IMG/VR virus record: IMGVR_UViG_3300033141_004054
Span: 1-36,978 of that record
DNA from: a virus
Strand: one strand, 5' to 3'
Length of the DNA stretch: 36,978 nucleotides
Positions 4,594 through 33,945 of the stretch are shown here, piece after piece. The position numbers and the translations under genes are program-made. Each line of letters begins with the position of its first letter. Position 1 is the stretch's first letter. Under the pieces are notes generated by a model. The model ran no database searches. It saw only the letters and a program-made list of their open reading frames with translations, and was not told the origin of the DNA.

Positions 4594-5748
4594 ATGGGTG
4601 ATTATAAATTAGCAATACAAAGACGATGTGAAATTTTCACAAAAAAAGAGACTAATTATGGAGTATTTGCATTTCCATCAACAACTGACGCTTTAGCTCC
4701 TTTAGGTTTCCCCACTCATTCATGGAATCAAAATTTTACTCCAAGTGCAGAAAGTCAAGATACTGGTTCTTTAATGGACAGATTTAGAGACAAAACTGGT
4801 GCTGGAACTTATAGTTTTGATATCTATGCTAGGCCAAGCGGAACTGCTGGAAATGTTCCTGCTGAAGATACTATATTGGAATGTGCTATGGGAAGTAAAC
4901 CTGCTGCGGCTTCTAGTTATATAATGTATACTTTAGCTAAATCTTTACCTTCTTTCTCTATGATTATAAGAGAAGATAATATTTGGTATTATTGTTATGG
5001 TTGTGTAGTAGATACTCTTACTTGTGCTCTTACAGCTGCTGGGGCTGTGGGTTATTCTGTAAGTGGTAATTTCAAGAAAGAATGTTATGCTGGCACTGGT
5101 ACTACACATAGTCCTTCTGCTGGGGCTACATTAGCCTTAAAAAATGGACATGGAAAACGGTTTAGTGTGGGTTCTTATATTGAAATAAATGGGGACAATA
5201 ATGGTGGAGCAGGATATGAAATTACTTCTATTTCTACAGATACTCTTACAGTATCCCCTAGTCATTCTTGTAATACTAGTGATGCTCCAGTTAAAGGATA
5301 TTCTCCAACTGCTGCATTAATAGGTACTCCAGTAGAAGCGAGATTGAATAATGTAACACTTCAACTTTCTGGTGAAAACGTTGTTCCTGAACCAATGGTA
5401 ACTGCTGGATTTACTCTTGCAAATAATCTTACTATGATTGAAGATGAAATGGATGGAACTGATTATGCTTCTAATTTTATAGAAAATGCTAAAAGAAGCA
5501 TAACGATTAACATGACTCCTTATTTTAGAAGAAGTACTTCCAGATTTTTCAATATTGCTGTAAATAATACTCAGCAACATGTAAGATTTAATTGTGGGAA
5601 TACTACTGGATATATGATTAGATTTGATTTTCCACGAATAGAACTTGATATCCCTAGTCCTACTGGAGCAGAAGCTAGGCAAGCTGCCTTAACTGGAGTT
5701 TCAATGGGGTCTAGTGGAGAAGATGAATTTTATATTACATATTATTAA
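4594..5748 (+). CDS. Major tail tube protein
   Basis: This 384-residue protein is beta-rich. SPSFSMIIREDNIWYYCYGC is not exact, but PSFSMIIRED followed by YCYGCVVDTLTCAL and VGYSVSGNFKKE is the pattern of tail tube subunits: a central sheet, then a 'G-x-x-V-D-T-L' segment. Residues ~180-235 look like an inserted small domain (FSVGSYIEINGDN, then ISTDTLTVSPSHS). The C-terminal part ends in strands with MIRFDFPRIELDIPSP. GGAGGTG (4579-4585) gives a strong SD. No contractile sheath gene is present beside it, supporting a non-contractile tail. Thr/Ser content is high, which would make it a conceivable glycosylation acceptor (inference only). Confidence 0.75.
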   Translation: MGDYKLAIQRRCEIFTKKETNYGVFAFPSTTDALAPLGFPTHSWNQNFTPSAESQDTGSLMDRFRDKTGAGTYSFDIYARPSGTAGNVPAEDTILECAMGSKPAAASSYIMYTLAKSLPSFSMIIREDNIWYYCYGCVVDTLTCALTAAGAVGYSVSGNFKKECYAGTGTTHSPSAGATLALKNGHGKRFSVGSYIEINGDNNGGAGYEITSISTDTLTVSPSHSCNTSDAPVKGYSPTAALIGTPVEARLNNVTLQLSGENVVPEPMVTAGFTLANNLTMIEDEMDGTDYASNFIENAKRSITINMTPYFRRSTSRFFNIAVNNTQQHVRFNCGNTTGYMIRFDFPRIELDIPSPTGAEARQAALTGVSMGSSGEDEFYITYY

Positions 5749-5775: not shown

Positions 5776-6210
5776 ATGTTTGTTAATGTTGAAAAATTAA
5801 AAAAGTTTCAGGTGGATCCTGTAGAAGTAGAATATATAAAAGGGGTAACTCTTTATTTAGTTCCTATAAGTCCTAAAGTTTTTGATGATATTACTAGAAA
5901 ATGCACTTCGTATAAATGGAAACATGGACAAAAAGTTGAAAAGCTCAATGAAGATTTACGAAATGAATTACTTTGGGATGAAATGATTAGTGATTGGAAA
6001 GGAATTTATGTGGAAGGGACTAATGAAGAGTGGCCTTGTACAAAAGATAATAAGATTCTTCTGATGCTAAATGATATGGAATTTAGTTCCTTTGTTCAAA
6101 GTGCTTGTTTAAATATAAATGATTATAAAATTGAAAAAGAAGAGGAGGACTTTGAAAATTTAGAGCCTTCTCCCAGTTCTTGCGTAGAAGAGGAAGTAGT
6201 GGAGAATTAG
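5776..6210 (+). CDS. Tail assembly chaperone, short form (gpG-like)
   Basis: This 144-residue soluble protein lies between tail tube and tape measure, the constant place of tail assembly chaperones. It begins with the type of N-terminal strand region found in these proteins (FVNVEKLKKFQVDPVEVEYIKGVTLYLVPIS) and ends in an acidic tail (KEEEDFENLEPSPSS...). In lambda the equivalent gpG and its frameshifted partner gpGT bind the tape measure and recruit tube subunits. Codons 127-129 contain a slippery heptamer (6156-6162) from which a longer product can be made. SD AGGGAGG lies at 5761-5767. Confidence 0.75.
   Translation: MFVNVEKLKKFQVDPVEVEYIKGVTLYLVPISPKVFDDITRKCTSYKWKHGQKVEKLNEDLRNELLWDEMISDWKGIYVEGTNEEWPCTKDNKILLMLNDMEFSSFVQSACLNINDYKIEKEEEDFENLEPSPSSCVEEEVVEN
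6143..6206 (+). promoter_or_regulatory. Programmed -1 ribosomal frameshift signal
   Basis: The heptamer A-AAT-TTA (6156-6162) is in the correct register of the upstream gene and fits X-XXY-YYZ. The -1 frame has a stop (TGA 6153-6155) directly before it and is open from exactly 6156 to 6533. An internal SD-like AGGAGG (6143-6148) lies 7 bases upstream, as in stimulatory sites such as dnaX. Five bases downstream, TTCTCC (6168-6173) can pair with GGAGAA (6201-6206). Slippage would give a 252-residue fusion. The signal parts are seen directly; activity is inferred. Confidence 0.75.
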
Positions 6211-6533
6211 ATTGTGAAAATTGTCCTTTTATTGATGAGAGGGAAAGTGAGAGTTGTTTTGACCGTTGTGGGTATGTGAACCTCTTTCCCTCTAATCTTA
6301 TGGCGTGGAGAGCATATACTATTTTTGCTACACAATTTTGTCATGATTTCAATGTTCCTCTAAATATGATTTTTGATGAACTGGGAGTAAAAGATAGACT
6401 TTTAACTTTTAGAAAAATGTGTATTATCCATAGTGAATTACACCCACAAAAAAATGAAAAGGGAGTAGAAGGTGTTCCTGAGAAAACTCAGAGATTACTT
6501 TCAAAAATGGAAAAAGATAGGAATAAAATATAA
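6156..6533 (+). CDS. Tail assembly chaperone extension (T part, made by -1 frameshift from 5776)
   Basis: The reading frame 6156-6533 has no good start: the first candidate is TTG 6180, with no SD at useful spacing. It is best read as the C-terminal part of a gpGT-like fusion starting at 5776, joined after codon TTA 6160-6162 and continuing at AGA 6162-6164 (129 + 123 residues). The extension has a Cys-rich start (CENCP, then CFDRCGY) that could bind metal. A helical part follows (MAWRAYTIFATQFCHDF, NMIFDELG), typical of T-domain sequences that bind the tape measure. The end is basic. It stops 18 bases before the tape measure gene. Confidence 0.7.
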   Translation, partial: KFRAFSQFLRRRGSSGELDCENCPFIDERESESCFDRCGYVNLFPSNLMAWRAYTIFATQFCHDFNVPLNMIFDELGVKDRLLTFRKMCIIHSELHPQKNEKGVEGVPEKTQRLLSKMEKDRNKI

Positions 6534-11245: not shown

Positions 11246-14200
11246 ATGGCAGAAAGTTTTGCAACATGGGCAAGTAAGGAAGTTACAGAAAAGATATTTT
11301 TGGTAACACTTTCCCCGAATAATATTGCAGATGGGGATAGCTGGACTGAAAAGGGTAGTGATACTTTACCAACAAGCAGAAGACTTCATCAATGTCTTGT
11401 TTATAAAGAAAAAATGTGGATAATAGGTGGTTATGTTGGGAGTGCTTCACGGAAAGTATATTATTCTACTGATGGAGAAACATGGACTGAGGCTGGAACT
11501 GATGCTTTGCCTGTTGCTACTTATGCTCATACTTGTTTAGTTTATGATGGGAAAATGTGGGTTATTGGAGGCTATACAACAAGTGCAGTCAGAAAAGTAT
11601 ATTACTCTACTGATGGAGAAACTTGGACAGAAGCTGGTTCTGATGCTCTCCCTGTAGCTACTTATTATCATGTATCTCTTGTATTTGACAATAAGATGTG
11701 GGTTATTGGGGGAATAGGGGTTGCTGAAACAAGAAAAGTATATTACTCTACTGACGGAGAAACTTGGACAGAGAAAGGGACAAATTCTTTACCAGTAGCT
11801 TTAAGAAATGGTGCTGGGTGTGTTTACGATGAAAAGATGTGGTTTACAGGGGGGTATACAGGAGCGGCGAATGCCCAAACAGTTTATTATTCCACTGACG
11901 GGGAAACTTGGACAGAGAAAGGGACAAATTCTTTACCCTCTGCGATTAGTAATCATCAATGTCTTGTTTATAACAATAAGATGTGGCAAATAGGAGGCTA
12001 TGTAAGTTCTTCTATAAAAAAAGTGTATTATTCTACTGACGGAGAAACATGGACTGAAGCTGGAACTAATGCATTAATTGAACCTATTTATTATCATCAG
12101 TGTCTTGTATATAAAGGGAAAATGTGGACTATTGGTGGTTATACAGGAGTGGCAAATTCACAAAAAGTTACATATTCTACTTTGGATACTTATTATCTTA
12201 CCAATTGGGGAGGAGAACAAAATAATGATTGGTCTCATTATTATGACCCAAGAATAAGTAGTATGCCTTCTTATAAACAATATCTTACTGAACTATTTTA
12301 TGGGGCATCTATACTCAGTTGGGGTTCAATGACAATAAATAATGCAGATGGTGAATTTGACTCTGTTATTACTGGGAATTGGATAGATGGAGATATAACA
12401 ATTAGAGTTGGTGGTTTGAATGTTCTCTATTCAAATTACAAATTAATATTAGATGGTACTTATAGATTTGCTTCTGCAAATAGAAATAGTTTTACTATAG
12501 ATATTTTTGATAATCAAAAAGATTTATTTGAAAAGGAAATTCCACCAAGAGAATTTGAAAAAGGTGCTTATCCTAATATTGCTGATAGTCTTGTAGGAAA
12601 ACCCATACCACTTTGTTATGGGATTCTTAAAAATATCAGTCCAATAAATACAAGTTATAAAGGAACAACTTCTAAAACTACTGTTTTAAGTGCAAGTATT
12701 AATGATACAAATACATCATTTGCAAGTGATGGTAGTGGAGATATTTCTGATTTTCCTATTTATGGGGGAATTGTTTTAATAGATGATGAAGTTTTACAAT
12801 ATACAGTAAGAAGTGGAAATAGTTTTACTACTGTAACAAGAGGGAAAATAGGAACAGATCCAGATGGACATTCTTCTGGTGCTACAATAACATTACTTGC
12901 AGGAATTGAATATAAATATCATGATACAGTAAGTACTGGAAATGCAGCATATCCTGAAAGTATATGGAAATTTACTTTAGGAAAAAGTGTTTATAGTGTT
13001 CATTATTTTGGTTCAAATGAAAATACTGCTTTGTTAAACGAAGATGTAAGCATAGGAGAAACTGCTATTGATATTGATAATGTAACAGGATCAGTCCCTT
13101 CTCCTGGAGGCTATTTTATAGTTGACCAAGAAGTTATTCGATATGATTCTTTTACAGATAATGGTGGTGGTTCTTATACTTTAAATAGTTGTACTAGAGG
13201 AGAATATAGTACAACTGATGCAACACATTCCAATAATGCTAAAATATGGTTTCGTGCTAGTTGTACAAATGCAGCAACTACTCTTGTAGTAATACATGCA
13301 AGTGGAATATATGGAGTAACAAATTCTAATTGGGCAAGATTAGATTCTTCAGGAAATTTAGGAATGTCTTCAAAATTATCAGCAGGGCTTATAACATATA
13401 CAGGAAGAAGTACAAATTTTCTTACTGGTGTTGGGAATCTTCCCGCTGCTGGTCTTGGGACTGCTACTTCTTTCTGGGGATTAGGTTCTTCTATGTATTC
13501 TGCATCACATGTTTCTGGTGATGATGATTATTGTGTTTTTCTTTCTCAAATTAAAACTGGTGGGGATTTTTCTGCATTTTCATCTGCTGTAAATGAAGGT
13601 ATTGAACAAACAAAAGTATTTTTTAAAGTTGGAAGTGAAATTATGGGTGTTTATAAATACTGGAAAAATTATCCATTATGGGATTCATATTTAGGATGTG
13701 GACAAATAGTTTTGGGGGGTAAGGTATTCAAGTGTAGTTATAATTCAACTTCTTATAGGGGTATGAAAGGAACTACTGCAGCAGTTCACTCAGAAAATAA
13801 TGTTATTTATGTAGAAAGTCCTATTGTATGGAGTGTAAGAGATAATGGTGTATGGTTAGAAAGAAAACCTAGTGATGCAGATGCTCCTGCACCAGGGGAA
13901 TATTATATTGATGCAACAAACGGAAAAATTTATCTTGGTTCTATACCTAGTGGAAAATTAACATTAGAAGTTGCTGGTGATTATTTTGAACCAAATAAAT
14001 ATGCTTTCTGGCATAGAATAATGGAAGAACTTATAGTTAATTTTACTGATTTAACCTCATCTGATATTGATGAAAGTTCATTAGAATGGCTAGATTATAA
14101 TGCGCCACATGAAATAGGATTATATCTTACAGAAAAAAGAAAAGTAAAAGATGTTTTAGATATGATTTGTATTCCTCTCTTAGGATGGTATGGAATGGAT

Positions 14201-14779
14201 AGAAATAGAACATTAATGATTAGAAAAATAAATGCATGGGATTATGTAGGATGGGTACATTCAAGTACTACTTGTTTTAGTGAATGGACAATTACAAATG
14301 ATATGATTTTTGATATACAAATTAAACCTTCTCCTTTGTACTTAAATAAAATTAATTTTAAATGGAATAAAAATTGGACTATACAAAGTAAAGACGAATT
14401 AGCAACATCACTTACACCACAGGAAAAAGATAAATATGAATTAGATTATCAAACTTATACTATTGATAAAAAAGGAAGTCGTTATGGTGTAGAAAAAACT
14501 GTGGAATCTTTATTGGTAGATGATGTAGATAATACAAGTAGAAAAGATGAATGTGGGATATTAGCCTCGCAATGGATAGATCATTATGATAATCATAGAA
14601 AGATTATACAAGTAAAGATTAAACAATATGCTTTTCTTATATCTCTAGGAGACCTTGTAACACTTTCTTGTGATCGTTATAATATTGATTCTGAAGATTA
14701 TCAATGTGTAGGAATAGAAGAAAATTATAATGATTCAATGGTATCTTTAACTCTTTTTGGAAATTTAACTTACTCATAA
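11246..14779 (+). CDS. Tail-tip/hub protein with N-terminal six-bladed Kelch-like propeller
   Basis: The protein has 1177 residues. Residues ~31-310 hold six repeats of 47-48 residues, with MW at residues 57, 104, 151, 198, 246 and 293. Each is of the form HxCLVYxxKMWxIGGY then KVYYSTDGETWTEAG, a Kelch pattern (hydrophobic strand, Gly-Gly, Tyr, Trp). After residue ~330 the sequence looks like a phage tail hub or tip protein, with GASILSWGSMTINNADGEF and, near residues 930-1000, KRKVKDVLDMICIPLLGWYG, as in tail-tip proteins. Three copies of an RGxxGT...H motif lie between. I infer a tip protein whose propeller may bind a host-surface glycan. It is encoded right after the tape measure. Confidence 0.75.
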   Translation: MAESFATWASKEVTEKIFLVTLSPNNIADGDSWTEKGSDTLPTSRRLHQCLVYKEKMWIIGGYVGSASRKVYYSTDGETWTEAGTDALPVATYAHTCLVYDGKMWVIGGYTTSAVRKVYYSTDGETWTEAGSDALPVATYYHVSLVFDNKMWVIGGIGVAETRKVYYSTDGETWTEKGTNSLPVALRNGAGCVYDEKMWFTGGYTGAANAQTVYYSTDGETWTEKGTNSLPSAISNHQCLVYNNKMWQIGGYVSSSIKKVYYSTDGETWTEAGTNALIEPIYYHQCLVYKGKMWTIGGYTGVANSQKVTYSTLDTYYLTNWGGEQNNDWSHYYDPRISSMPSYKQYLTELFYGASILSWGSMTINNADGEFDSVITGNWIDGDITIRVGGLNVLYSNYKLILDGTYRFASANRNSFTIDIFDNQKDLFEKEIPPREFEKGAYPNIADSLVGKPIPLCYGILKNISPINTSYKGTTSKTTVLSASINDTNTSFASDGSGDISDFPIYGGIVLIDDEVLQYTVRSGNSFTTVTRGKIGTDPDGHSSGATITLLAGIEYKYHDTVSTGNAAYPESIWKFTLGKSVYSVHYFGSNENTALLNEDVSIGETAIDIDNVTGSVPSPGGYFIVDQEVIRYDSFTDNGGGSYTLNSCTRGEYSTTDATHSNNAKIWFRASCTNAATTLVVIHASGIYGVTNSNWARLDSSGNLGMSSKLSAGLITYTGRSTNFLTGVGNLPAAGLGTATSFWGLGSSMYSASHVSGDDDYCVFLSQIKTGGDFSAFSSAVNEGIEQTKVFFKVGSEIMGVYKYWKNYPLWDSYLGCGQIVLGGKVFKCSYNSTSYRGMKGTTAAVHSENNVIYVESPIVWSVRDNGVWLERKPSDADAPAPGEYYIDATNGKIYLGSIPSGKLTLEVAGDYFEPNKYAFWHRIMEELIVNFTDLTSSDIDESSLEWLDYNAPHEIGLYLTEKRKVKDVLDMICIPLLGWYGMDRNRTLMIRKINAWDYVGWVHSSTTCFSEWTITNDMIFDIQIKPSPLYLNKINFKWNKNWTIQSKDELATSLTPQEKDKYELDYQTYTIDKKGSRYGVEKTVESLLVDDVDNTSRKDECGILASQWIDHYDNHRKIIQVKIKQYAFLISLGDLVTLSCDRYNIDSEDYQCVGIEENYNDSMVSLTLFGNLTYS
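11336..12175 (+). repeat. Six tandem ~141-144 base repeats encoding the Kelch-like blades
   Basis: DNA-level repetition is obvious. The segment AACTTGGACAGAGAAAGG and the following 15 bases recur exactly 144 bases apart (11761 and 11905), and the TATTACTCTACTGA...GGAGAAAC block recurs in nearly every unit. Identity at the DNA level suggests recent duplication or ongoing recombination between blades. Confidence 0.85.
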
Positions 14780-22033: not shown

Positions 22034-25000
22034 ATGAAAAAAAATGATGCAACTGATTTAACTATGTTTGTTAGGACTTCTCAAGAAACAATTGCCCATT
22101 GGGATAGAAATCGAATTGTAGATGCACTTGTCCGTGAAACATATGTAAATATAGACACTGCAAATACGATAAGTCGAGAAGTTGAGGATTTAATAAAACA
22201 TTCAAATATAAGTGTGATAACTACTCCTCTTATAAGGGAGCTGGTTGATGCAAAGCTAATCGAGCATGGCCTTGAAAAAGCACGTATTATGCATACAAGG
22301 CTTGGTATGCCTCTTTATGATGTGAATCAATTGATATTCAATCGCAACAAGGAGAACGCAAATGTGCCACATAATCCTGAGGCGACAAATTTAACATTGG
22401 CCGAAAATATAAAAAAAGAGTATGCTCTTCTTAATGTTTTTTCCCAAGATGTTGCAGATGCCCACATGAGGGGTGATATTCATATTCACGATTTAGGGTT
22501 CTGCGATAGACCTTATAGTTTTTTTAGAAATGAAATTTTAATAGTTAAAACTCCTAAAGACAAAATATGGGTTCTTCCTTTTGAACAATTATTTGAAAAG
22601 ATAACTTCAGAAATCAAAAAAGAAAAAGAGTTTGAAATTAAAAATACTCCAGGGTTTTTTGTAGCAGATGAAAATGGTTGGGTTGAATTAAAAAGAATTG
22701 TAAGACATAAAACAGAAAAACCATTAATAACTATAAATTCAGAAAATGGGAAAACAATAACAACTACTTCTGACCATCCATTTATTAAAATAAAGGAAGA
22801 TGCAAAAGTAATTATTTGTCCAAAATGTAAGAGTGAAAATGTAGTAAAAAATGGGAGTATAAAAAAGCAAAAAAGAAGTTATTTATGTAAAAATTGTAAT
22901 AGAATCTTCAGAATAAAAATAGAAGAAATAAATGTAAAAGACAGAGAAATAGTTAGTACAGAGAAAATAAATAATAGAAATTTTATTTTAACTCCAAAAA
23001 TAAATTGTAAAAATAAAAACAAATCAGAAATTAAAGAAGACATGGCATACTTTATTGGCTATTTTATTGCTGAAGGTTTTTATGGTAAAAATGAAGTAAG
23101 TATTAGAACAAAAGAAATTGAATTAGATAAAATAAAACAAATACTTAGAAATAACAAAATAAAATTTGGAGGGAACAAAGAAAGAATAAGAATTTATAGT
23201 AAAAATTTTAAAGATTATTTAAAAGACCAATTAGGAATAAGAAGATATTCTCAAAACATAACATTACCTTTTGATTTTTTTGAATATAATGAAAAAGTAA
23301 TTAATGCTATGATTTCTGGAATAATTGATGGTGATGGATGTATTAAAACAGATAAATATGTAAGTGAGATATTAATAAGACTTACTTCAAAAGCATTACT
23401 TAGTCAAATGCAAACTTATTTTGACTCTATAGGTATAAGAAATTATTTAACACCAATAAAGGACTATGGAATAAGCATTTATAAAGATAAAACAATTGAA
23501 GGTAAATTACCTTTGTTTTGTTTAAGATTCTATTTAACTTCAAAACAAAAAGAATTATTTAAATTTTCAGAGAAAATAAACAATAAAGAATTTAAAGAAA
23601 CAAAAGTAAATAGAGAACAAAAAAATTATTCACAGGTTAAAAAAATAAAAGAGATTAAAAATGATGATCCTTACGTTTATGATATTACAACTGAATCAGG
23701 TACTTTTATTTCAAGTGGAGTATTGGTTCATAATTGTTCGGGTCAATCTTTAGAATACGTCAAAAAGTATGGACTGAATTTGCCAAATGCATTATCTATG
23801 GCGAAGCCTGCAAAACATCCCGAAGTGCTTCTCGCTCACATGGTCAAATTTTCCGCTGCCTTACAAGGACATTTTGCGGGGGCTATAGGGTGGGATGCAG
23901 TCAATTTATATTTTGCTCCATATATAACACACATGAGTAGCAATGAAGTCAGACAACTATCCCAGATGCTTATATTTGAATATTCTCAACAGGCCGTTGC
24001 AAGAGGGGGGCAGGCAATATTTAGCGACATAAATCTGTATTGGGAAGTTCCCTCTCACCTGGAGAATGTTCCAGCAATAGGTCCAGGAGGAGAATATACA
24101 GGTAAAACCTATGGTGCATATGAAAAGGATGCCCAAAAATTTTTATGGGAATTATTTGAAGTATATAAAGAAGGTGATGGATGCGGTAGACCTTTTTTCT
24201 TTCCGAAGCCTCTATTGCATATAACTGAAAAGTTTTTTACTACAGAAAATCACTTGGAATTTCTTTATCATGCCTGCGATGTTGCATCTACTAAAGGTAA
24301 TACGTATTTTGTGTTTGATAGGGGTGCAACGGCAAAAATAAGTGAATGTTGTTTTCATAATACACAAAAAGTTCTTGTTAAAACTAGTAGAGGAATTAGG
24401 CACGATACAATAGGAAAAATATGTAGAACATATATAAAAGAAATAAAAGTTTTCCATAATGGTGTTTTTAGAAAAGCAAAACCTGTTATTACAAAACATG
24501 ATAAATTTGTGAAAGTAACTTTATCAAATGGTTTTAAAATGTTTGTAACAGATAATCATTTGTGTCCAACATATGTAGGAGATAAAGAAGCAAAGTTCTT
24601 AACTACAAATGATTTTATACCTGTTAATAATATAGAATTTAAAGGATTAAATGATAAAGGAACTTATTTTATGGGGTATTTTATAGGAGCCTATTTAGGA
24701 GATGGTTCTTGTGATCATAAAGGAAATAATAACGGGATAACATTTAGTCTATCAAAAAGAAAACAAAAAGTGATTAATATTATTACTGAATTTGCTAAAT
24801 CTTTTGGGGCACATATTACTGTAAGACCCGAAAATGATAAACATATTATTTTTGTTAAAATTACATCTATGACTTTAAAAGCTCTCATTTTAGAATTTAT
24901 AGGTGGAGAAAACGCTTTAACTAAAACTTTGAATAATAGAGTATACGAAATGAGTATTAGTTTTAAAAAAGGATTAACCGATGGTTATTTTGATACAGAT

Positions 25001-26305
25001 GGAGGTTCTTCTAAAAGAATATATACATCTAGTTCCAATTTGATAGATGATATGGCAACTTTAAATACAACTTTAGGTATGCCAATTAATATAACAGAAG
25101 ATAATAGAAAGAAATTTGAAGGCTCATATAGTAATAATCCTAATTATTGTATACGTCCTTATGAAAGAGTTTCTAAATACAAACGAAGAAAAGGATTTAT
25201 ATTTGAAAACAATAAATATTATTTTCAAATTAAAAATATTGATTATATATCTTATAATAAGTTAATTCCTGCGTATTGTTTTGAAATGGAAGATAATAAC
25301 AATCCTTATTTTACTTTAGCCAATGGCATCGAAACACATAATTGCAGGCTCTCCTTCAAATTAAATACTCAAGATATAGCTGAAGCAAAAACTCCCTGGA
25401 AAATGAGGTATTCGGCTTTGCAAAATGTTTCTATTAATTTACCGAGATTTGGATATGAAGCGCAAGGAGATGATACAACTTTATTTTCGTTACTTTCCGA
25501 TCGGGTGGAATTAGTTGCAAAGGCCCATATCCAGAAAAAACATTTCATTGAAAAATTATTAGCTCAAGGTAAGAATGGTCCTCTTGCTCTTCTTGTTATG
25601 GATAAAGATGGTGAACCTTATTTGCGTATGAATAAATTATCATATTTGGTTGGGATGGTTGGCCTAAATGAGCTTGTGCAAGCCCACACTGGACAGGAAA
25701 TGCATGAATCAAAAAGTGCTTTCAAATTTGGGTTGAAAGTTATATCTCATATGAAACTTATGGTTGACAAGTTATCTTCAGAATATAACATGCATTTTGT
25801 ATTAGAGCAAACACCAGCTGAAAGTACAAGTTATCGTTTTGCAAAGCTGGATATTAAACATTTTTCTCCAGACGCTGGTCACATAGTTAAAGGGAATATT
25901 CTAGAAGATGAAGTATATTATACGAACTCGACTTATCTTAATGGAAGCGTTCCAATTAATCCTATAGAACGAGTTAAACAAGAAGGACTATTTCATCCTT
26001 TAGTTGAAGCGGGGGCACTTACTCACATATGGGTAGGAGAATCAACCCCATCAAAAGAATCACTTGCTAATTTTGTGATTAAAACATTTAAAATGACACA
26101 GAATGACCAAATTGCTTTTTCTCCAGAGTTTACTATTTGTAATAGTTGCTTAAAGACATCGAGAGGATTGCATGAAAAATGCCCAATTTGTTCATCTCCA
26201 GACGTGGATGGGATAACGAGAATAACTGGATACTTTACAAAAATATCTAGTTGGAACAAGGGAAAAATAGGGGAATTGCATGACAGATTTAGATTGGAGA
26301 TATAA
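22034..26305 (+). CDS. nrdD: Anaerobic ribonucleoside-triphosphate reductase with two inteins
   Basis: The 1423-residue precursor splices to a 686-residue class III reductase that reduces NTPs to dNTPs without oxygen. The N-terminus (VRTSQETIAHWDRNRIVDAL) is an ATP-cone. HIHDLGFCDRPY (150-161), CSGQSLEYVKKYG, RGGQAIFSDINLYW and SEC+CRLSF are conserved NrdD segments. A zinc site is formed by Cys1369/1372/1383/1386, and the radical Gly1399 lies in RITGYFTKI near the end. Inteins occupy residues 162-567 and 773-1103, both in active-site motifs. AAGGTGAG lies at 22023-22030. Activating enzyme NrdG is not in the window. One 60-base extein stretch (23821-23880) is 50% GC while one intein stretch (23101-23160) is 15%. 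Confidence 0.93.
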   Translation: MKKNDATDLTMFVRTSQETIAHWDRNRIVDALVRETYVNIDTANTISREVEDLIKHSNISVITTPLIRELVDAKLIEHGLEKARIMHTRLGMPLYDVNQLIFNRNKENANVPHNPEATNLTLAENIKKEYALLNVFSQDVADAHMRGDIHIHDLGFCDRPYSFFRNEILIVKTPKDKIWVLPFEQLFEKITSEIKKEKEFEIKNTPGFFVADENGWVELKRIVRHKTEKPLITINSENGKTITTTSDHPFIKIKEDAKVIICPKCKSENVVKNGSIKKQKRSYLCKNCNRIFRIKIEEINVKDREIVSTEKINNRNFILTPKINCKNKNKSEIKEDMAYFIGYFIAEGFYGKNEVSIRTKEIELDKIKQILRNNKIKFGGNKERIRIYSKNFKDYLKDQLGIRRYSQNITLPFDFFEYNEKVINAMISGIIDGDGCIKTDKYVSEILIRLTSKALLSQMQTYFDSIGIRNYLTPIKDYGISIYKDKTIEGKLPLFCLRFYLTSKQKELFKFSEKINNKEFKETKVNREQKNYSQVKKIKEIKNDDPYVYDITTESGTFISSGVLVHNCSGQSLEYVKKYGLNLPNALSMAKPAKHPEVLLAHMVKFSAALQGHFAGAIGWDAVNLYFAPYITHMSSNEVRQLSQMLIFEYSQQAVARGGQAIFSDINLYWEVPSHLENVPAIGPGGEYTGKTYGAYEKDAQKFLWELFEVYKEGDGCGRPFFFPKPLLHITEKFFTTENHLEFLYHACDVASTKGNTYFVFDRGATAKISECCFHNTQKVLVKTSRGIRHDTIGKICRTYIKEIKVFHNGVFRKAKPVITKHDKFVKVTLSNGFKMFVTDNHLCPTYVGDKEAKFLTTNDFIPVNNIEFKGLNDKGTYFMGYFIGAYLGDGSCDHKGNNNGITFSLSKRKQKVINIITEFAKSFGAHITVRPENDKHIIFVKITSMTLKALILEFIGGENALTKTLNNRVYEMSISFKKGLTDGYFDTDGGSSKRIYTSSSNLIDDMATLNTTLGMPINITEDNRKKFEGSYSNNPNYCIRPYERVSKYKRRKGFIFENNKYYFQIKNIDYISYNKLIPAYCFEMEDNNNPYFTLANGIETHNCRLSFKLNTQDIAEAKTPWKMRYSALQNVSINLPRFGYEAQGDDTTLFSLLSDRVELVAKAHIQKKHFIEKLLAQGKNGPLALLVMDKDGEPYLRMNKLSYLVGMVGLNELVQAHTGQEMHESKSAFKFGLKVISHMKLMVDKLSSEYNMHFVLEQTPAESTSYRFAKLDIKHFSPDAGHIVKGNILEDEVYYTNSTYLNGSVPINPIERVKQEGLFHPLVEAGALTHIWVGESTPSKESLANFVIKTFKMTQNDQIAFSPEFTICNSCLKTSRGLHEKCPICSSPDVDGITRITGYFTKISSWNKGKIGELHDRFRLEI
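22517..23734 (+). mobile_element. Intein 1 in NrdD (LAGLIDADG, with zinc ribbon)
   Basis: This 406-residue intein begins with Ser162 and ends VHN before Cys568. Removing it restores HDLGFCDRPY+CSGQSL. Block B is TTSDHPF. LAGLIDADG motifs are FIGYFIAEGFYG (~340) and AMISGIIDGDGCI (425-437). A C4 zinc ribbon (Cys262, 265, 285, 288; CPKC and CKNC) sits between splicing and nuclease parts, of a type seen in IS1 InsA-like transposon proteins. The C-terminal block is YDITTESGTFISSGVLVHN. DNA is very AT-rich relative to the extein. Confidence 0.92.
24350..25342 (+). mobile_element. Intein 2 in NrdD (LAGLIDADG)
   Basis: This 331-residue intein begins with Cys773 and ends IETHN before Cys1104. Removal restores SEC+CRLSFKL. 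TDNH forms block B. LAGLIDADG motifs MGYFIGAYLGDGSCD (880-894) and GLTDGYFDTDGGS (980-992) keep both acidic residues (Asp890, Asp989). The C-terminal part contains IPAYCFEMEDNN, then FTLANGIETHN. It has no zinc ribbon, unlike intein 1, and is not closely similar to it outside the shared motifs. Confidence 0.92.
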
Positions 26306-27057
26306 TGATAATAAAAGATAATCCAAAAGTAGATATTATAATTGCCAATTATAATCATGCTGAATTTCTTCCAGATGCCATAGATTCTGTTTTGAATCAA
26401 ACTTATTCTAATTGGAAACTTACAATTGTAGATGACTTTTCATCAGATGAAACAAGAAGAATAATTGATTTTTATTTGAGAAAAGATGATAGGGTAAATG
26501 TAATATATCATAATAAAAATAAAGGATATGGGGAAGCATTAATTACAGGAATAGAAAATACTAATAATCCTTTTATTGGTATTTTAGATTCTGATGATTA
26601 TCTTGAATCTAATGCTGTTTTTAGATCTCTTTTAGAATTTCAAAGAGCTAAAGGAATTTTAATGACTTATTCTATGATGCAGTTGTGCTCAGATGATATA
26701 AATTGTCCTACTTCTCATTTTAATCCACCAGATAAATTTATAATTCCTAGTGGAAAAACTTTTTTAGATTTATGCCCAAAAGGATTTTCATTTTATTTAA
26801 TTCAACATTTCAAAGTTTTTAAACGCAAAGCATATATAAAAACAGGAGGAATAAAAAGAAATTTAAGAAAAAGTGTAGATAAGGATATTATTTTTAAAAT
26901 GGAGGAGGTAGGAAAAATAAAATTTATACCTGAAATCTTATATAGAAAAAGAACACATGCAAAACAAATTACTAAACTTTATAAACATAAACCTGAAATC
27001 ATGAAACAAATTATGGAAGTAGTAAATGATGCAAAAAGAAGGAGAGGAATAATATGA
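26305..27057 (+). CDS. GT2 family glycosyltransferase A
   Basis: This 250-residue GT-A fold enzyme begins in a TAATG overlap with NrdD; SD GGAGA lies in the end of NrdD. VDIIIANYNHAEFLPDAI starts the nucleotide-sugar domain, VDDFSSD (42-48) binds UDP and DSDD (95-98) is the metal-binding DxD. The second half has KSVDKDIIFKMEEVG and FIPEILYRKR, a signature shared with the two GT2 proteins encoded at 27964 and 28720. No membrane segment is seen, so it works in the cytoplasm. The sugar donor cannot be told. Its last codons overlap the next gene (ATGA). Confidence 0.85.
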   Translation: MIIKDNPKVDIIIANYNHAEFLPDAIDSVLNQTYSNWKLTIVDDFSSDETRRIIDFYLRKDDRVNVIYHNKNKGYGEALITGIENTNNPFIGILDSDDYLESNAVFRSLLEFQRAKGILMTYSMMQLCSDDINCPTSHFNPPDKFIIPSGKTFLDLCPKGFSFYLIQHFKVFKRKAYIKTGGIKRNLRKSVDKDIIFKMEEVGKIKFIPEILYRKRTHAKQITKLYKHKPEIMKQIMEVVNDAKRRRGII

Positions 27058-27383
27058 ATAGAGAAAAAAAAGAACAACCAAAAAGAATGGATATCAAAGA
27101 ATTTAGGGCTTTTGGATTTATACAAGAAATAAACAGGCAATTTTTACATCCTATGGGATTAGCTATAGAAGTTATTATAGATGAAAAAGGAAATGAAACT
27201 TTAGGTGGAATTTGGGATTATAGGGATGACCCAAAAGGAATAACTTATGCAAAGGAAATAATGGCAACTAAAATAGCCAAAGAAAAGGCTGATCGTGTCC
27301 AAGAATTTAAACGTGAAAAACACATGAGTAGGAAAAAAGCGTTAGGGTTCGTGATACAGCCAATAAAAAATGATAGAGAATAG
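27054..27383 (+). CDS. Conserved phage protein of unknown function
   Basis: This 109-residue soluble protein has the pattern MDIKEFRAFGFIQEINRQFL, then PMGLAIEVIIDEKGNETLGG, IWDYRDDPKGITYAKEI and a final LGFVIQPI. I know this layout from small proteins found in many unrelated phages, usually with no assigned role. It starts in an ATGA overlap with the GT2 gene and overlaps the next gene by 14 bases. The surrounding genes are sugar-modifying, but this family is not known to be, so the location may be chance. A regulatory or scaffold role is possible. No metal, membrane or catalytic motif is visible. Confidence 0.65.
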   Translation: MNREKKEQPKRMDIKEFRAFGFIQEINRQFLHPMGLAIEVIIDEKGNETLGGIWDYRDDPKGITYAKEIMATKIAKEKADRVQEFKREKHMSRKKALGFVIQPIKNDRE

Positions 27384-27963
27384 AATAGACCCTTCTTTAG
27401 ATAGACATTGGTATAAGATGATAAATGCAAAACATCATGCTATTGGGCTTTCTAAAATAGGAATTTATAATATATTTAAATATAAAAAAGTTTTGTATAT
27501 AGGAGCTGGAGTTAGCTATGATAGATTTGAATTTGTTAAAATTTTGTATCCTTATAAAGATTTAACTATTATAGAGCCAAATTCAAAAAATGTTGACAGA
27601 AAAGTATCTTCTTATACCCTTAAAGGAATGTATCCATTAGCAAAAGTTATAAGATCATATTTAATAAATGTAAGAAGAATTTTAGGAGGTAAGAAGTTTG
27701 AATTAGGTATTTGGTGGCATGGTCCTGAACATATTCCTAAACGTGAACTATTAATTAATCTTACTGAATTTGAAAAGGTTATTACAAAATTTATTTTATT
27801 GGGAGGCCCAAATCCATATATTCCTCAAGGGAGATTTTGTTCTTCTCCTATGTATCATTGGTATGGATTAGGAGAAATAGATTGGGAAAAATTAGGGTAC
27901 AACCATATTGTTTATGGTAAAAAAAATAGATATTTAATAGCATGGAAAAATTTGGAGAAATAA
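27370..27963 (+). CDS. Methyltransferase-like protein with WWHGPEHI motif (paralog 1)
   Basis: This 197-residue protein resembles a class I SAM methyltransferase: KVLYIGAGVSYDRFEFV (40-56) gives a motif I, LTIIEPN (65-71) the acidic residue after strand 2, and KFELGIWWHGPEHIPKREL a motif IV-like strand whose usual EHL turn is extended to WWHGPEHI (115-122). FILLGGP follows as strand 5. A paralog with the same WWHGPEHI and similar surroundings is encoded at 31192. I infer a sugar-acting methyltransferase or a protein of the same fold. The doubled Trp and extra Gly-Pro are unusual. It starts within the end of the previous gene and stops directly before the next start. Confidence 0.6.
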   Translation: MIENRIDPSLDRHWYKMINAKHHAIGLSKIGIYNIFKYKKVLYIGAGVSYDRFEFVKILYPYKDLTIIEPNSKNVDRKVSSYTLKGMYPLAKVIRSYLINVRRILGGKKFELGIWWHGPEHIPKRELLINLTEFEKVITKFILLGGPNPYIPQGRFCSSPMYHWYGLGEIDWEKLGYNHIVYGKKNRYLIAWKNLEK

Positions 27964-28719
27964 ATGTTAAATAAAAAAAAGGAAAGTTTTAATGTGAATC
28001 CCACATTTGATATTATAATGTGTTGCTTCAATAACGAAAAATATATAGAGGAAGCAATAGAATCTGTTCTTAAACAAACATATCCTTATTGGGAATTAAT
28101 TCTTATTGATGATTTTTCTCAAGACAATAGTAGAGAAATTATTAAAAAATATTGTGAAAATTATTTAAATATACATGCCTCTTTTAAAGAAAAAAATGGG
28201 GGATACGGAGGAGCCATGAATTTGGGAATTTCTATTTTACAAGGAGAACTTATAGCATTAGTAGATGGTGATGATTGGATTTTTCCAAATGCTCTTGAAA
28301 TAATGGTAAAAGCTCATAAGGATTATCCCAATGCTGCTTTAATTTATTCTAAATATGTAATTTGCAATGAAAAATTAAAAGCAAAACATTTAGGAAGGTC
28401 TGATTCTTTAGAAGGAAAATCTATATTAGAGGCTTGGGCAGATCCTAATGGCCCTCGAATGAGTCATCTTAAAACTTTCAAAAGGAAATTTTATAATATG
28501 ACTAAGGGGGTAAATCCAAAACTTAGAAAAGCTGTTGACAAGGATTTAGTTCTGAAATTAGAAGAAGTAGGGGATGTGATCTTTATCCCAGAAATTTTAT
28601 ATAAACACAGACGACATAAAAATACAATATCTTATAAATATCGATCTCGCCCTGATATATGTAAAATGATCAAAGATAGACTCATAAGAAATGCAAAAAG
28701 AAGAAGAGGATTATTATAA
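27964..28719 (+). CDS. GT2 family glycosyltransferase B
   Basis: This 251-residue enzyme has the GT2 pattern FDIIMCCFNNEKYIEEAI (15-32), LIDDFSQD (47-54), GGYGGAMNLGI (79-89) and the DxD site DGDD (101-104). C-terminal AVDKDLVLKLEEVG and FIPEILYKHRRH match GT2-A. The repeated 'K-x-V-D-K-D-L' element is probably part of the acceptor-binding or catalytic-base region. SD GGAGA lies at 27954-27958, inside the end of the preceding gene. No membrane anchor. One sugar per enzyme would imply a glycan with at least three GT2-made bonds, but redundancy is equally possible. Confidence 0.85.
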   Translation: MLNKKKESFNVNPTFDIIMCCFNNEKYIEEAIESVLKQTYPYWELILIDDFSQDNSREIIKKYCENYLNIHASFKEKNGGYGGAMNLGISILQGELIALVDGDDWIFPNALEIMVKAHKDYPNAALIYSKYVICNEKLKAKHLGRSDSLEGKSILEAWADPNGPRMSHLKTFKRKFYNMTKGVNPKLRKAVDKDLVLKLEEVGDVIFIPEILYKHRRHKNTISYKYRSRPDICKMIKDRLIRNAKRRRGLL

Positions 28720-29490
28720 ATGGAATCAATAGGATTTTCCATTCTGATTACAGCCTATAATTCTGAAAAATTTATAGAACAATCAATAAAATCAGCATTA
28801 AGACAAAGTTATGAAAATAGTGAAATAATAATAGTAGAAGATGGTTCTACTGATCATACTATATCTGTTATAAAAAGATTTGAAAAAAATAGAAAGGTTA
28901 AAATATATTATAATGATAAGAATAGAGGGTATGGATATGCTTTAAGAAAAGCTTTTTCTCATGCTACAAAGCAATATGCTGTTATTTTGGATTCTGATGA
29001 TATGTTAATGAAAAAGGCTTTAAAAATTATGTCTATATATATTAAAAAAAATAGAGACTATGCCTTATATCATTCCAAAAGACTTACTATAAATGAAAAA
29101 GGAATCATTGACAGAAGAAGACAAATAAAACAAGAGTTTTATAATTTAGGAAATTCAAAATATATTGACCATTTAAGACGAAGAGAAAAATCTGGTATAA
29201 GTCATTTAAAAGTAGTAAATATGAAATTTTATAATAAGACAGATGGTGTATCCCCTTTATTAGGTAAAAAAATAGATAAAGATTTAATAGCAAAACTAGA
29301 AGAAGTAGGTAAATTTTATTTTGTTGATGAATTTTTATATCTTTATAGGAGATGGGAAGGAACAATGTCTTCCAGATTTAAAAAAATTGTTGGAAAAACA
29401 AAAGTGGTGGAATTAGGAAGAAAAATTAATGATATTATTATTGTAAATGCAGAATTAAGAAGAATATTAAAAAATGAAAATCTTTCTTGA
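28720..29490 (+). CDS. GT2 family glycosyltransferase C
   Basis: This 256-residue third paralog has FSILITAYNSEKFIEQSI (6-23), IVEDGSTDHT (38-47, closer to the classical VDDGSTD than its paralogs), RGYGYALRKAF and DSDD (91-94). The C-terminal signature is present but divergent (KIDKDLIAKLEEVGKFYFV, then DEFLYLYRRW). It begins immediately after the stop of GT2-B and overlaps the GT4-like gene by 17 bases. Divergence among the three suggests they transfer to different acceptors or with different sugars rather than being a recent triplication. No membrane segment. Confidence 0.85.
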   Translation: MESIGFSILITAYNSEKFIEQSIKSALRQSYENSEIIIVEDGSTDHTISVIKRFEKNRKVKIYYNDKNRGYGYALRKAFSHATKQYAVILDSDDMLMKKALKIMSIYIKKNRDYALYHSKRLTINEKGIIDRRRQIKQEFYNLGNSKYIDHLRRREKSGISHLKVVNMKFYNKTDGVSPLLGKKIDKDLIAKLEEVGKFYFVDEFLYLYRRWEGTMSSRFKKIVGKTKVVELGRKINDIIIVNAELRRILKNENLS

Positions 29491-30448
29491 TCCAAAAGCT
29501 GATCGACATAGAATGTCTAATAGAATGAAACCCCATTGGAATTCAATGGGAATAAAGTATTCTAATAATCCAAAAAAATGTGATGTTCAATTGTGCTTTG
29601 GAACTATTCAAACTCCAACTAATCTCCCCAAAATTGTAAGATTAGATGGAGTTTACTACGATACAGATAGAGATTATCATACAAAAAACAAAAGTATGAT
29701 TGAAGCAATTAATCAATGTAAAGGAATAATTTATCAAAGTAAATGGGGAAAAAAGATGGCTAAACATTATTTATTTCCTCCCAAAAATATTCCTTCAATT
29801 ATTATTTATAACGGAGCAGATGATTGGTGGAGTGGAGAAAAAGAAAAACACAATAATATAAATATTGTTTCCACTGCAAAATGGAGGAGACATAAGAGAC
29901 TTCAAGAGCTGTGTAAAGCTTTTATAAAATACAAAGAAGTTTTGTCTTGTCATTCTTTCACTAATAAATCACCAAAATTATATATTATAGGGCCAATTAG
30001 AGATAGAAAAGGTTCCAAATTAATTCCAGATATTGATATCATTTATTTAGATAAGATGAATTATAAAGAAATTGCTGAAGTATATAGAAAATGTGATATA
30101 TTTCTTCATGCATCTAAAAGAGATTGTTGCCCATGTGCTGTTGTTGAAGCTATTGCAGCACATTTGAAAATTGTAACTACTATAGGCTGCGGAGGGGCAG
30201 TAGAATTGGTAAAAAAAGGAGGAGAAGGTGTTTGTGGAGAAGTTGTGAAAATTGATTGTGTATGTTGGAAGCCTGTGGCCCATTACAGAGATGAATGGAA
30301 TATATGGAATGAAGAAGAGGAAAAGAAATATGTTGATGGAATGATTGAAGCTACGAAGAAAATAAATGAAGATTTTCTTTTTCCAGAAGAACTTTCGACT
30401 GAATTTATGGCAAGGGCATATGGGAATTTCCTAAAGAAATGTATATAG
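29474..30448 (+). CDS. GT4-like GT-B glycosyltransferase
   Basis: This 324-residue protein has a two-domain GT-B layout: N-terminal half with VQLCFGTIQTP, PKIVRLDGVYYD and QCKGIIYQSKWGKK; C-terminal half opening with INIVSTAKWRRHKRLQEL (129-146), then YIIGPIRDR and RDCCPCAVVEAIAAH (217-230), where the Glu of E-x7-E-like motifs sits, and TIGCGGAVELV. It resembles GT4 enzymes that use nucleotide-activated sugars. The region has many Cys residues for a cytoplasmic phage enzyme. Overlap with the upstream GT2-C implies joint translation. A 45-base gap follows, the longest break in this operon. Confidence 0.75.
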   Translation: MKIFLDPKADRHRMSNRMKPHWNSMGIKYSNNPKKCDVQLCFGTIQTPTNLPKIVRLDGVYYDTDRDYHTKNKSMIEAINQCKGIIYQSKWGKKMAKHYLFPPKNIPSIIIYNGADDWWSGEKEKHNNINIVSTAKWRRHKRLQELCKAFIKYKEVLSCHSFTNKSPKLYIIGPIRDRKGSKLIPDIDIIYLDKMNYKEIAEVYRKCDIFLHASKRDCCPCAVVEAIAAHLKIVTTIGCGGAVELVKKGGEGVCGEVVKIDCVCWKPVAHYRDEWNIWNEEEEKKYVDGMIEATKKINEDFLFPEELSTEFMARAYGNFLKKCI

Positions 30449-30493
30449 TAGGATAATATATAAAGTAGAAAACTTATAAAAAGGAAAATATAA

Positions 30494-31195
30494 ATGAAAG
30501 GTGAAAAAAAAGAAGGATTAATTTCAAAAGAAGTTAGAAAAAGAGCGAAATATATGAAACATTGTCATGTGATGGCTGCTAAAAAACAAAGATTTATTAG
30601 GTATTATGAAAATTATAATGAATATTTTAACAGACTTATTAAAATGGAAGAAAAAATTATTTGTCCTTTTTCATTTAGTAAAAGAAAAAACAGAATGAGG
30701 ACTATATCCGATTTATGGTTATGTCTTCCTTTTTTAAAAGGAAAATCTGTATTAGATATAGGAACTAGAGATTTTTATATTTTGAATGCTTTAAAATATA
30801 ATAATAAAAAATGGAAAGTAAAAGGAATAGATGTTAGTTGGAAACAACAGAGATTTTATTCAGCTTATTACAGAATTCCTTTTCAATTTGCAGATATTAA
30901 TTTAAATATGATAAATGAAACATTTGATTTTATTATTTGTAGGCATGTTATAGAACACACATATTCTCCAAGAGATGTTTTGATGAATATATATGGAATG
31001 CTTAAAGAAGAAGGAATAGTATTATTGGAAGTACCAAGTAAAGAAAGAATGAAAAAAGGATGTTTACAAAAAGCACACTCTTGGGCGTGGACCGCTGAAG
31101 GATTTAAAAAGCTATGTGAAAGATATTTTGAATGTGTACAGTTTTTTATAATAAGTGATGATATTGTATTTATAGGACGAAGAAAGGAATTATGA
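30494..31195 (+). CDS. Class I SAM-dependent methyltransferase
   Basis: This 233-residue protein has a basic helical N-terminal stretch (~65 residues), then GKSVLDIGTRDFYILNAL (motif I, D-I-G), VKGIDVSWKQQ, the motif IV segment ETFDFIICRHVIEHTYSPRD and strand 5 EEGIVLLEVPSKER. It fits Methyltransf_11/23-type enzymes. AAGGA near 30480-30485 precedes ATG 30494. It starts a second transcriptional or translational block after the 45-base gap. The substrate is unknown; clustering with glycosyltransferases suggests methylation of a sugar. It ends in an ATGA overlap with the next gene. Confidence 0.75.
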   Translation: MKGEKKEGLISKEVRKRAKYMKHCHVMAAKKQRFIRYYENYNEYFNRLIKMEEKIICPFSFSKRKNRMRTISDLWLCLPFLKGKSVLDIGTRDFYILNALKYNNKKWKVKGIDVSWKQQRFYSAYYRIPFQFADINLNMINETFDFIICRHVIEHTYSPRDVLMNIYGMLKEEGIVLLEVPSKERMKKGCLQKAHSWAWTAEGFKKLCERYFECVQFFIISDDIVFIGRRKEL

Positions 31196-31779
31196 AATTT
31201 CATATAAAAAACAAAAAATGTAAATGGGAAATAAAAGGGAAAAAAATAGATATGTTGGGATTTATAAATCATTATATCAAAAATCCTTTTTCTTATAAAA
31301 AAGTATTAAATATAGGAAGTGAAGGAAACTTTTCTTTTTCTTCAGAAATATATTCAAACGCTTCTTATGTTGTAATAATAGAACCCTTTTGTGGGTATAT
31401 GAAATCAAATGAAAAAAATGCAGAAAAACAAAAAAATGAAATTGATATTAAAATAATAAGAACATTTGCTATAAATGTTGGAAAAATATTTAAAGGAAAA
31501 GTATTTAATCTCTGTTTTTGGTGGCATGGTCCTGAGCATATAGAAAGAGACGAATTAAAAATAAATCTTATTGAATTAGAAAAAGTAACTTCTGATTTAA
31601 TTTTAATTGGTTGTCCGTGGGGGAAGTATTATCAAAAAGAAAAGGGGGAAAATATATATCAAAAACATCTTAGTTTTTTGTATGAAAAAGATTTCACTAA
31701 TTTAGGATATAAAGTAGCTGTAATAGGAACTAGAGATAAAAAACGTGGAAGGTTATTAGCATGGAAGTATATAAAGTAA
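31192..31779 (+). CDS. Methyltransferase-like protein with WWHGPEHI motif (paralog 2)
   Basis: This 195-residue paralog of the protein at 27370 has KVLNIGSEGNFSFSS (37-51, motif I with the Gly residues shifted), VVIIEPFCGY (60-69), FNLCFWWHGPEHIERDEL (105-122) and LILIGCPWG. The shared order 'IEP...WWHGPEHI.R.EL.INL.E.EKV' shows common descent, and 3.8 kb of other genes separate them. Motif I is weaker here than in paralog 1. I infer a methyltransferase-fold protein, perhaps one of two that act on different positions of one glycan. It overlaps the following GT-B gene by 19 bases. Confidence 0.55.
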   Translation: MKFHIKNKKCKWEIKGKKIDMLGFINHYIKNPFSYKKVLNIGSEGNFSFSSEIYSNASYVVIIEPFCGYMKSNEKNAEKQKNEIDIKIIRTFAINVGKIFKGKVFNLCFWWHGPEHIERDELKINLIELEKVTSDLILIGCPWGKYYQKEKGENIYQKHLSFLYEKDFTNLGYKVAVIGTRDKKRGRLLAWKYIK

Positions 31780-32822
31780 TTCATATATTCGATAAACAAG
31801 ATCAGATTCCTGCTATGATAAATGAAGGTTTAATTGAACATCATGGATTTATTCCCTTTTTTTATAACGATGTAATTAGTATAGGACAACGAATAAAAAA
31901 GAGAATTAAAAATACAAAAGAAGAAATGTTAAATTGTGACTTTATTATTTTAAGGGATTTTATTATACCTAAATCTGGTAAAAATAAATTTTTTAAAGTA
32001 ATTAATCACATAAATAAATTTGATTTATGGTACAAAGTAATCTATTATGATCAATTAGATAATAATGGAATTGACCAAGATATTTTAAACAAGTGTTTTT
32101 TATATTGCAAAAGAACTTGGCATAAAAAAATGCAGAATATGAACAAATTTATTTTACCTTTTGGATTTGGAGCACTCAATGCTTATTATAAAATGAAAAT
32201 TAAAAAACCAAAGAGAAAAATAGATTTATTATGTACTCTTCCTTTTAGAAATCCAGGAAGAATACATGTATTAGAAACATTACAAAGGCAAAAATGGAAA
32301 GGATATAATGTTCAAATTGGTGATTTAACAATGTCTAAAAAGAGAGGAAGGAATGCTATATGGAAAATTAAACAGAAAGGAGTTATATCTTTATGGAAAT
32401 TATATTTTAATTGGATGAATTCTGCAAAAATAATTTTTACTGCTTATCCAGGAAAAGGAAGAAAAAATGGGGATAGTAGAACTTGGGAAGCAATGAGTAG
32501 TGGTGCGTTGGTTTTTATGGATATTACTGATATGCCAACTGAAAATTATTTTGAACATGGGAAACATTGTTTTAAATTTGATGCTTTTTGTATAAAATCA
32601 ATTAATAAAGCCATTGAAAAGGCAAAAGAAATGTTAGAAAACAATAAATTAAGACAAAAAATAGCTTTAGAAGGATATAACCATACAAAAAAATATCATA
32701 GTAGCCTTTCTAGAGTTGATTTTTTATATAGAGCAATTCAAGCAGTAAAAAATAATACTCAATCTGAATTTTTAAATTTATTATTAAAAGATTTTAATGA
32801 AAAAAATAAAGGAAATTTTTAA
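31761..32822 (+). CDS. CgeB-like GT-B glycosyltransferase 1
   Basis: This 353-residue protein has a variable N-terminal domain and a conserved C-terminal region typical of the Glyco_trans_1_2/CgeB group: AKIIFTAYPGKGRKNGDSR, then TWEAMSSGALVFMDITDMP, NYFEHGKHCFKFDAF and a helical end (KAIEKAKEMLENNK, LEGYNHTKKYHSSLSRV). The E in 'TWEAMSSG' is the probable nucleotide-sugar contact. A close paralog follows directly, sharing one base in a TAATG overlap. Such enzymes are found in phages and in surface-glycan or glycoprotein gene sets. No membrane segment. The donor sugar cannot be assigned. Confidence 0.75.
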   Translation: MEVYKVIHIFDKQDQIPAMINEGLIEHHGFIPFFYNDVISIGQRIKKRIKNTKEEMLNCDFIILRDFIIPKSGKNKFFKVINHINKFDLWYKVIYYDQLDNNGIDQDILNKCFLYCKRTWHKKMQNMNKFILPFGFGALNAYYKMKIKKPKRKIDLLCTLPFRNPGRIHVLETLQRQKWKGYNVQIGDLTMSKKRGRNAIWKIKQKGVISLWKLYFNWMNSAKIIFTAYPGKGRKNGDSRTWEAMSSGALVFMDITDMPTENYFEHGKHCFKFDAFCIKSINKAIEKAKEMLENNKLRQKIALEGYNHTKKYHSSLSRVDFLYRAIQAVKNNTQSEFLNLLLKDFNEKNKGNF

Positions 32823-33916: not shown

Positions 33917-33932
33917 AAAATTTTATTGAAAA

Positions 33933-33939
33933 AAGGAGA
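33933..33939 (+). promoter_or_regulatory. Ribosome binding site for a TTG-started gene
   Basis: AAGGAGA precedes two tandem TTG codons (33946 and 33949) at 6 and 9 bases. No ATG or GTG lies at a usable distance upstream, so a TTG start is the best reading. Confidence 0.6.
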
Positions 33940-33945
33940 AAATAA

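Follow-up and report, generated by a model that had tools for sequence, protein, structure and literature searches.

The window (the whole stretch of DNA analyzed here) comes from IMG/VR as a virus record; it is 36978 bases long with 30% G+C and contains a capsid gene (PF05065 match in Pfam). At the locus of interest, a tail tube gene recognized by Pfam is followed by gene G with its overlapping extension T, and then by a presumed tape measure gene, so designated by position and length (Table 1). The presumed tape measure protein had no family match in PHROG or Pfam; it aligns at 28% over 392 aa with an ORF at the same place in L023, a contig with a related capsid gene. Behind it lies a gene for a 1177-aa protein with Kelch-type repeats (11246-14779). 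The stop codons of 40 ORFs (25 TAA, 8 TGA, 7 TAG) give no sign of stop-codon reassignment in the window, and an Rfam search of the window yielded no match.

Table 1. Features at the G/T locus, in window coordinates
Feature	Position	Strand	Basis
Tail tube protein, upstream neighbor of G	4594..5748	+	Pfam Phage_tube_2, E 2.9e-13
Gene G, tail assembly chaperone, zero-frame product of 144 aa	5776..6210 (ATG to TAG)	+	PHROG 313
AGGAGG, internal Shine-Dalgarno-like element, possible 5' stimulator	6143..6148	+	Sequence; effect inferred
TGA closing the -1 frame directly before the heptamer	6153..6155	+	Sequence
A_AAT_TTA, slippery heptamer, in register	6156..6162	+	Sequence; A_AAT_TTT class-mate in L101 and L102
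T extension, -1 frame, 123 codons past the slip plus TAA	6162..6533	+	Open frame, coding score
Possible stem after the heptamer	6168..6206	+	-11.2 kcal/mol, z -1.57; 16/200 shuffles as good
Cys cluster CENCP..CFDRC in T, C-x2-C-x10-C-x3-C	6213..6269	+	Translation
Presumed tape measure protein, 1561 aa	6552..11237	+	Position and length

Sequence and structural modeling both indicate that G encodes a tail assembly chaperone. Its product matches the tail assembly chaperone family PHROG 313 with an E value of 3.4e-9, and a match to Pfam TAC_5 fell under that family's cut-off. We built an AlphaFold model from a 10-row alignment (pLDDT 73.6; about 85-90 in the core) and re-aligned 991 chains to it: YqbN, a phage chaperone, came first (Z 6.6), ahead of an entry titled as the tail assembly chaperone of HK97 (Z 6.0) and a third chain at 4.0. 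Z scores below 8 are modest alone, but having two chaperones on top agrees with the PHROG match. A Foldseek search with the model gave nothing below an E value of 0.001, and the G sequence profile matched none of the solved structures.

Near its end, G is read as GAA GAG GAG GAC TTT GAA AAT TTA GAG, which places A_AAT_TTA in register, as a preliminary description of this DNA had proposed; no other in-register X_XXY_YYZ heptamer occurs in the overlap. The same description had the -1 frame opening exactly at the heptamer, behind a TGA, and this is what we found: the frame is open from AAA (6156) to TAA (6531-6533). The fusion length of 252 residues that it gave is also correct, being the sum of 129 and 123 residues. 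The junction is identical in L001, another contig from this phage, which differs from the window at a single base in 6432, at position 6012, where the change is silent in G. L001 is a second assembly, which may or may not represent a second sample; because its junction is identical, a private sequencing or assembly slip at this point appears unlikely.

The T frame looks coding. Over the 106 codons past the G stop its coding score was +14.5 nats, compared with -8 to -100 nats for the other five frames of the same stretch. Reference scores at the 5, 50, and 95% points were 16, 28, and 41 for known genes and -115, -79, and -43 for off-frames; T thus lies far above the off-frame 95% point of -43 and just below the known-gene 5% point (16.4), a slight shortfall that counts against a frameshift. 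Only 1 of 20000 dinucleotide shuffles was open as long as T. Searches of T against families revealed no similarity, and neither hmmsearch nor hhalign matched it to the T domain of T5-type phages; a single-sequence model was too poor to compare (pLDDT 42). These results, too, count against a frameshift. Translation in the -1 frame does yield the unusual Cys cluster noted in the preliminary description, and we would guess that its four cysteines bind a metal such as zinc.

T might instead be a separate gene that starts within or just after G (TTG 6180, GTG 6276, or ATG 6300), perhaps where ribosomes reinitiate at the stop of G. Start codons are indeed present in the T frame, and T5-type phages have T annotated as its own CDS; however, each of the six T-frame starts has a Shine-Dalgarno (SD) match of at most 3 bases, whereas matches of at least 4 bases accompany 31 of 39 genes in the window, no T-frame start lies within 25 bases of TAG, and the frame is open back to the heptamer exactly. 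We therefore consider independent initiation of T improbable.

A second alternative is that no programmed shift takes place and that the two frames are a chance or degenerate split, in which an ancestral G-T gene was broken by an indel or appears broken through sequencing error. Across 39 ORFs there are 11742 codon junctions, 178 of which carry an in-register X_XXY_YYZ heptamer, and the probability of finding at least one among the 17 usable positions of the overlap is about 0.23. The heptamer by itself is thus not significant: chance would supply one in about a quarter of such overlaps, which favors a split and counts against a frameshift. The heptamer together with an upstream AGGAGG is statistically notable, since AGGAGG lies 5-12 bases upstream of only 2 of the 178 heptamers (6156 and 26859) and such in-register pairs are expected in the overlap only 17 x 2/11742 = 0.003 times. 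The split is further opposed by the identical junction in the second contig and by the recurrence of a two-frame G/T arrangement in two distantly related contigs (L101 and L102), in phages of the phiCbK type, and in every T5-type locus read; we judge it less probable still than a separately started T. The second AGGAGG with an in-register AAATTTA lies within a glycosyltransferase gene (26844-26865, heptamer at 26859), where the -1 frame is shut after 7 codons, and is a natural negative case.

The AGGAGG element lies 7 bases ahead of the heptamer, as had been described (spacer 6149-6155); the spacing becomes 10 if pairing is by GAGG (6142-6145) only. Its letters are an uncommon, not extreme, codon choice, as the synonymous GAG GAG that creates them accounts for 3 of 65 Glu-Glu pairs, and AGGAGG occurs 25 times on the + strand of the window, mostly within genes. 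When AAU occupies the P site, 8 bases separate it from AGGAGG, which is close to the usual SD distance at initiation; because of this near-initiation distance, its pull on the ribosome may be weaker than in Escherichia coli dnaX. The available excerpt of PMC5009743 places the dnaX SD 10 nt before the slip site, and in the K-12 sequence we measured AGGGAG-10-AAAAAAG. The two systems share an SD-like element upstream of a -1 heptamer and differ in the element (AGGGAG versus AGGAGG), the spacing (10 versus 7), the heptamer (A_AAA_AAG versus A_AAT_TTA), and the gene and its purpose. A role for the element in the window is plausible, although its spacing is shorter than in dnaX and the heptamers of L101 and L102 have no AGGAGG before them; the case that it stimulates the putative slip seems to us evenly balanced.

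A short stem had been proposed 5 bases after the heptamer; it does start there, at 6168, but it is no better than chance, with folding of 50, 60, and 100 nt giving z scores of -1.57, -0.71, and -0.39 and 16, 43, and 71 of 200 shuffles equalling it. Its role is doubtful. A longer hairpin, formed by pairing of AGGAGG with CCTTCTCC on the other side of the heptamer, folded better than most shuffles (z -2.19; 4 of 200 as good), but a ribosome on the site would probably keep this hairpin open.

The arrangement resembles that of lambda gpG/gpGT: a chaperone gene precedes that of the tape measure protein, T extends it in the -1 frame, and a heptamer lies near the end of G. The window differs in its A_AAT_TTA, its upstream AGGAGG, its Cys4 cluster, and a T without detectable relatives; the lambda-type heptamer is a different sequence from A_AAT_TTA. 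The ratio and roles of lambda gpG and gpGT are described in the excerpt of PMC5009743, according to which certain tailed phages shift seemingly without stimulators. The same excerpt, in which A_AAU_UUA itself is not named, ranks U_UUU_UUA below A_AAA_AAG in shifting in E. coli, a point against the frameshift proposed here. Caulobacter phage phiCbK gp93/gp94 have a G weakly similar to that of the window (E 0.1-2) and an annotated -1 fusion, and phiCbK-type chaperones carry a programmed frameshift in their annotation; unlike in the window, the phiCbK heptamer, A_AAA_AAC, lies directly ahead of the stop (AAAAAAC is named in the part of the phiCbK paper available, PMC3556154). Elsewhere, a putative UUUUUUC is given the same purpose in SPP1 (excerpt of PMC6316719), and two HK97-like chaperone genes shifted at 6% and 7% in reporters (excerpt of PMC3711429). 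A literature search on AAATTTA and frameshifting pointed to work on animal viruses, from which novelty in phages does not follow. Production of the fusion by transcriptional rather than ribosomal slippage, which the excerpt of PMC3711429 treats as established for poly-A/T runs, is the least credible alternative, as the site offers no run longer than AAAA, with TTT behind it, short of the A>7 or T>8 given there.

We conclude that the locus very probably encodes a -1 G/GT frameshift in the predicted tail assembly chaperone of a long-tailed phage. We favor this reading because of the chaperone family and fold, the location, the coding -1 frame that lacks a start signal, and the heptamer class seen in relatives (L101/L102, below); these same features support the agreement with known phage G/GT frameshifting that had been suggested. 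The mechanism is thus very likely the one well known in tailed phages, with a less usual slip sequence. Most ribosomes would read G to TAG and make gpG of 144 aa. We infer that a minority would slip while holding AAU (P site) and UUA (A site), moving back one base onto AAA and UUU, miss TAG, and continue in the -1 frame to the TAA at 6531-6533, making gpGT of 252 aa. In the translating ribosome, the anti-SD probably pairs with AGGAGG, which would favor the slip. By analogy with lambda, gpG would coat the tape measure protein, and recruitment of tail tube subunits would fall to the T part of gpGT. The locus adds a well-formed G/GT case from a phage distant from every record in the phage collection searched, and its heptamer and SD-like element are easily tested apart.

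As single queries of the viral_contigs collection, G, T, the tail tube protein, and the major capsid protein found only another contig of the same phage, and an NrdD-like protein query found one further such contig (L010). In the phages collection, tblastn with G, T, the tube, and the presumed tape measure protein gave no match, and two scans of genome_contigs and a search of plasmids gave no relative. With the fusion as query and E values up to 10, tblastn returned 31 phage records: 25 Caulobacter and 2 Pectobacterium phages at E 0.1-2, most but not all with a chaperone label at the match; the other 4 are Pseudomonas jumbo phages, matched at E 6 through an unrelated gene. Capsid relatives at 42-48% made up 9 of 80 loci (L017-L025), and we inspected the genes downstream of the capsid in three. 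L017 appears to have glycosyltransferases there, and L020 shows no chaperone in the stretch available. L023 carries a dissimilar ORF of chaperone size (119 aa), followed by a frame that is open in a different register.

When we searched L017-L102 by tblastn with window G and T, the G matches were confined to L097-L102 and the T matches to the phage itself. Two of these contigs, L101 (3300034789_000989) and L102 (3300046655_000727), which were found by alignment of G and whose G is 27-28% identical to that of the window, are near-copies of each other and count as one case. Both have A_AAT_TTT (L101:5324-5330, L102:3189-3195) where a -1 T frame opens, in the layout TGA AAA TTT. They thus share with the window a homologous G, a -1 T, this layout, and the heptamer class; they differ in having no AGGAGG before the heptamer, a T5-type T domain, and a stem 10 bases downstream of the heptamer (z -2.4 to -2.7), where the window stem is unsupported. 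In alignments, the shift codons of the window lie about 14 residues downstream of the L101 and T5-type sites, which suggests either an insertion in the window or separate origins of the heptamers; given this offset, the heptamer shared with L101/L102 may be convergent. In a tree, the window has an end branch of 2.97 and belongs to no starred group, and the -1 label requires three changes; the tree cannot place the window and leaves the origin of the heptamer unsettled.

A tblastn search with L101 G matched 877 phage records and led to T5-type phages. We read the junctions of nine loci chosen for variety among 60 matches listed, of DU_PP_V, of L114-L120 (all seven besides the phage itself), and of T5. 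In every one the T frame is +1 relative to G. At the junction, all 15 of the loci compared, and T5 as well, have TTT CGN in register, which makes 16 of 16 (L098, L104-L112, L114, L116-L119, and L121, which is T5); for each, TTT CG was located and the frame checked, and none failed. L115 and L120 were omitted, their G and T products being equal to those of L114 and L119, and L104 and L112 are close relatives. The protein sequence past the site is alike across loci well ahead of the first Met of T, and by eye no clear SD is present in the 18 bases before that Met. Counts by codon position between site and Met favored the third position in three comparisons (3/1/7, 3/2/13, and 11/8/16) and did not in three others (9/6/8, 6/2/4, and 7/4/7). 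These sequences suggest a putative +1 shift at UUU_CGN in the T5 family, in which ribosomes would pass from UUU to UUC.

Separately started T genes in relatives had been named as evidence against a frameshift. T5-type records do annotate T as a separate CDS; we do not take this as refuting, because the frame runs back into G as far as a shared +1-type site. Whether relatives keep the heptamer had also been proposed as a check: L101/L102 have one of the same class, and the T5 types have TTT CGN with T in the +1 frame. T5 chaperones (T5.143/T5.142 and relatives) are like the window in having a homologous G whose end is overlapped by T, and differ in having T in the +1 frame. According to the available excerpt of a Klebsiella phage paper (PMC6256483), no frameshift signal is predicted in Sugarland, as in T5, and it is here that we propose a T5 site. 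The T5 comparison may matter more than the window case.

Comparison of L101/L102 with the T5 types points to an apparent switch of frameshift direction: homologous chaperones seem to arrive at one and the same fusion, the T5 family through a +1 and the two contigs through a -1 shift. This would open the evolution of frameshift direction to direct testing. More tentatively, and with considerable doubt, the window may belong with L101/L102 to a chaperone family in which direction switched at the same G end, T5 types shifting +1 at UUU_C and these -1 at A_AAU_UUN, and in the branch of the window T may have been replaced by a Cys4, possibly metal-binding, domain, the shift coming under internal Shine-Dalgarno control.

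Elsewhere in the window, a 1423-aa NrdD (anaerobic ribonucleotide reductase; 22034-26305) contains intein splicing and LAGLIDADG/homing endonuclease domains in more than one place. About 90 bases of its gene (22308-22401) are doubled in L010, near position 10365 of that contig, so that length differs between assemblies. A long series of glycosyltransferase and methyltransferase genes occupies 26305-34503; by eye, similar genes apparently lie near the capsid gene, downstream, in L017. Finally, a protein encoded at 35911-36714 has five matches to NUMOD3, presumably a homing endonuclease motif.
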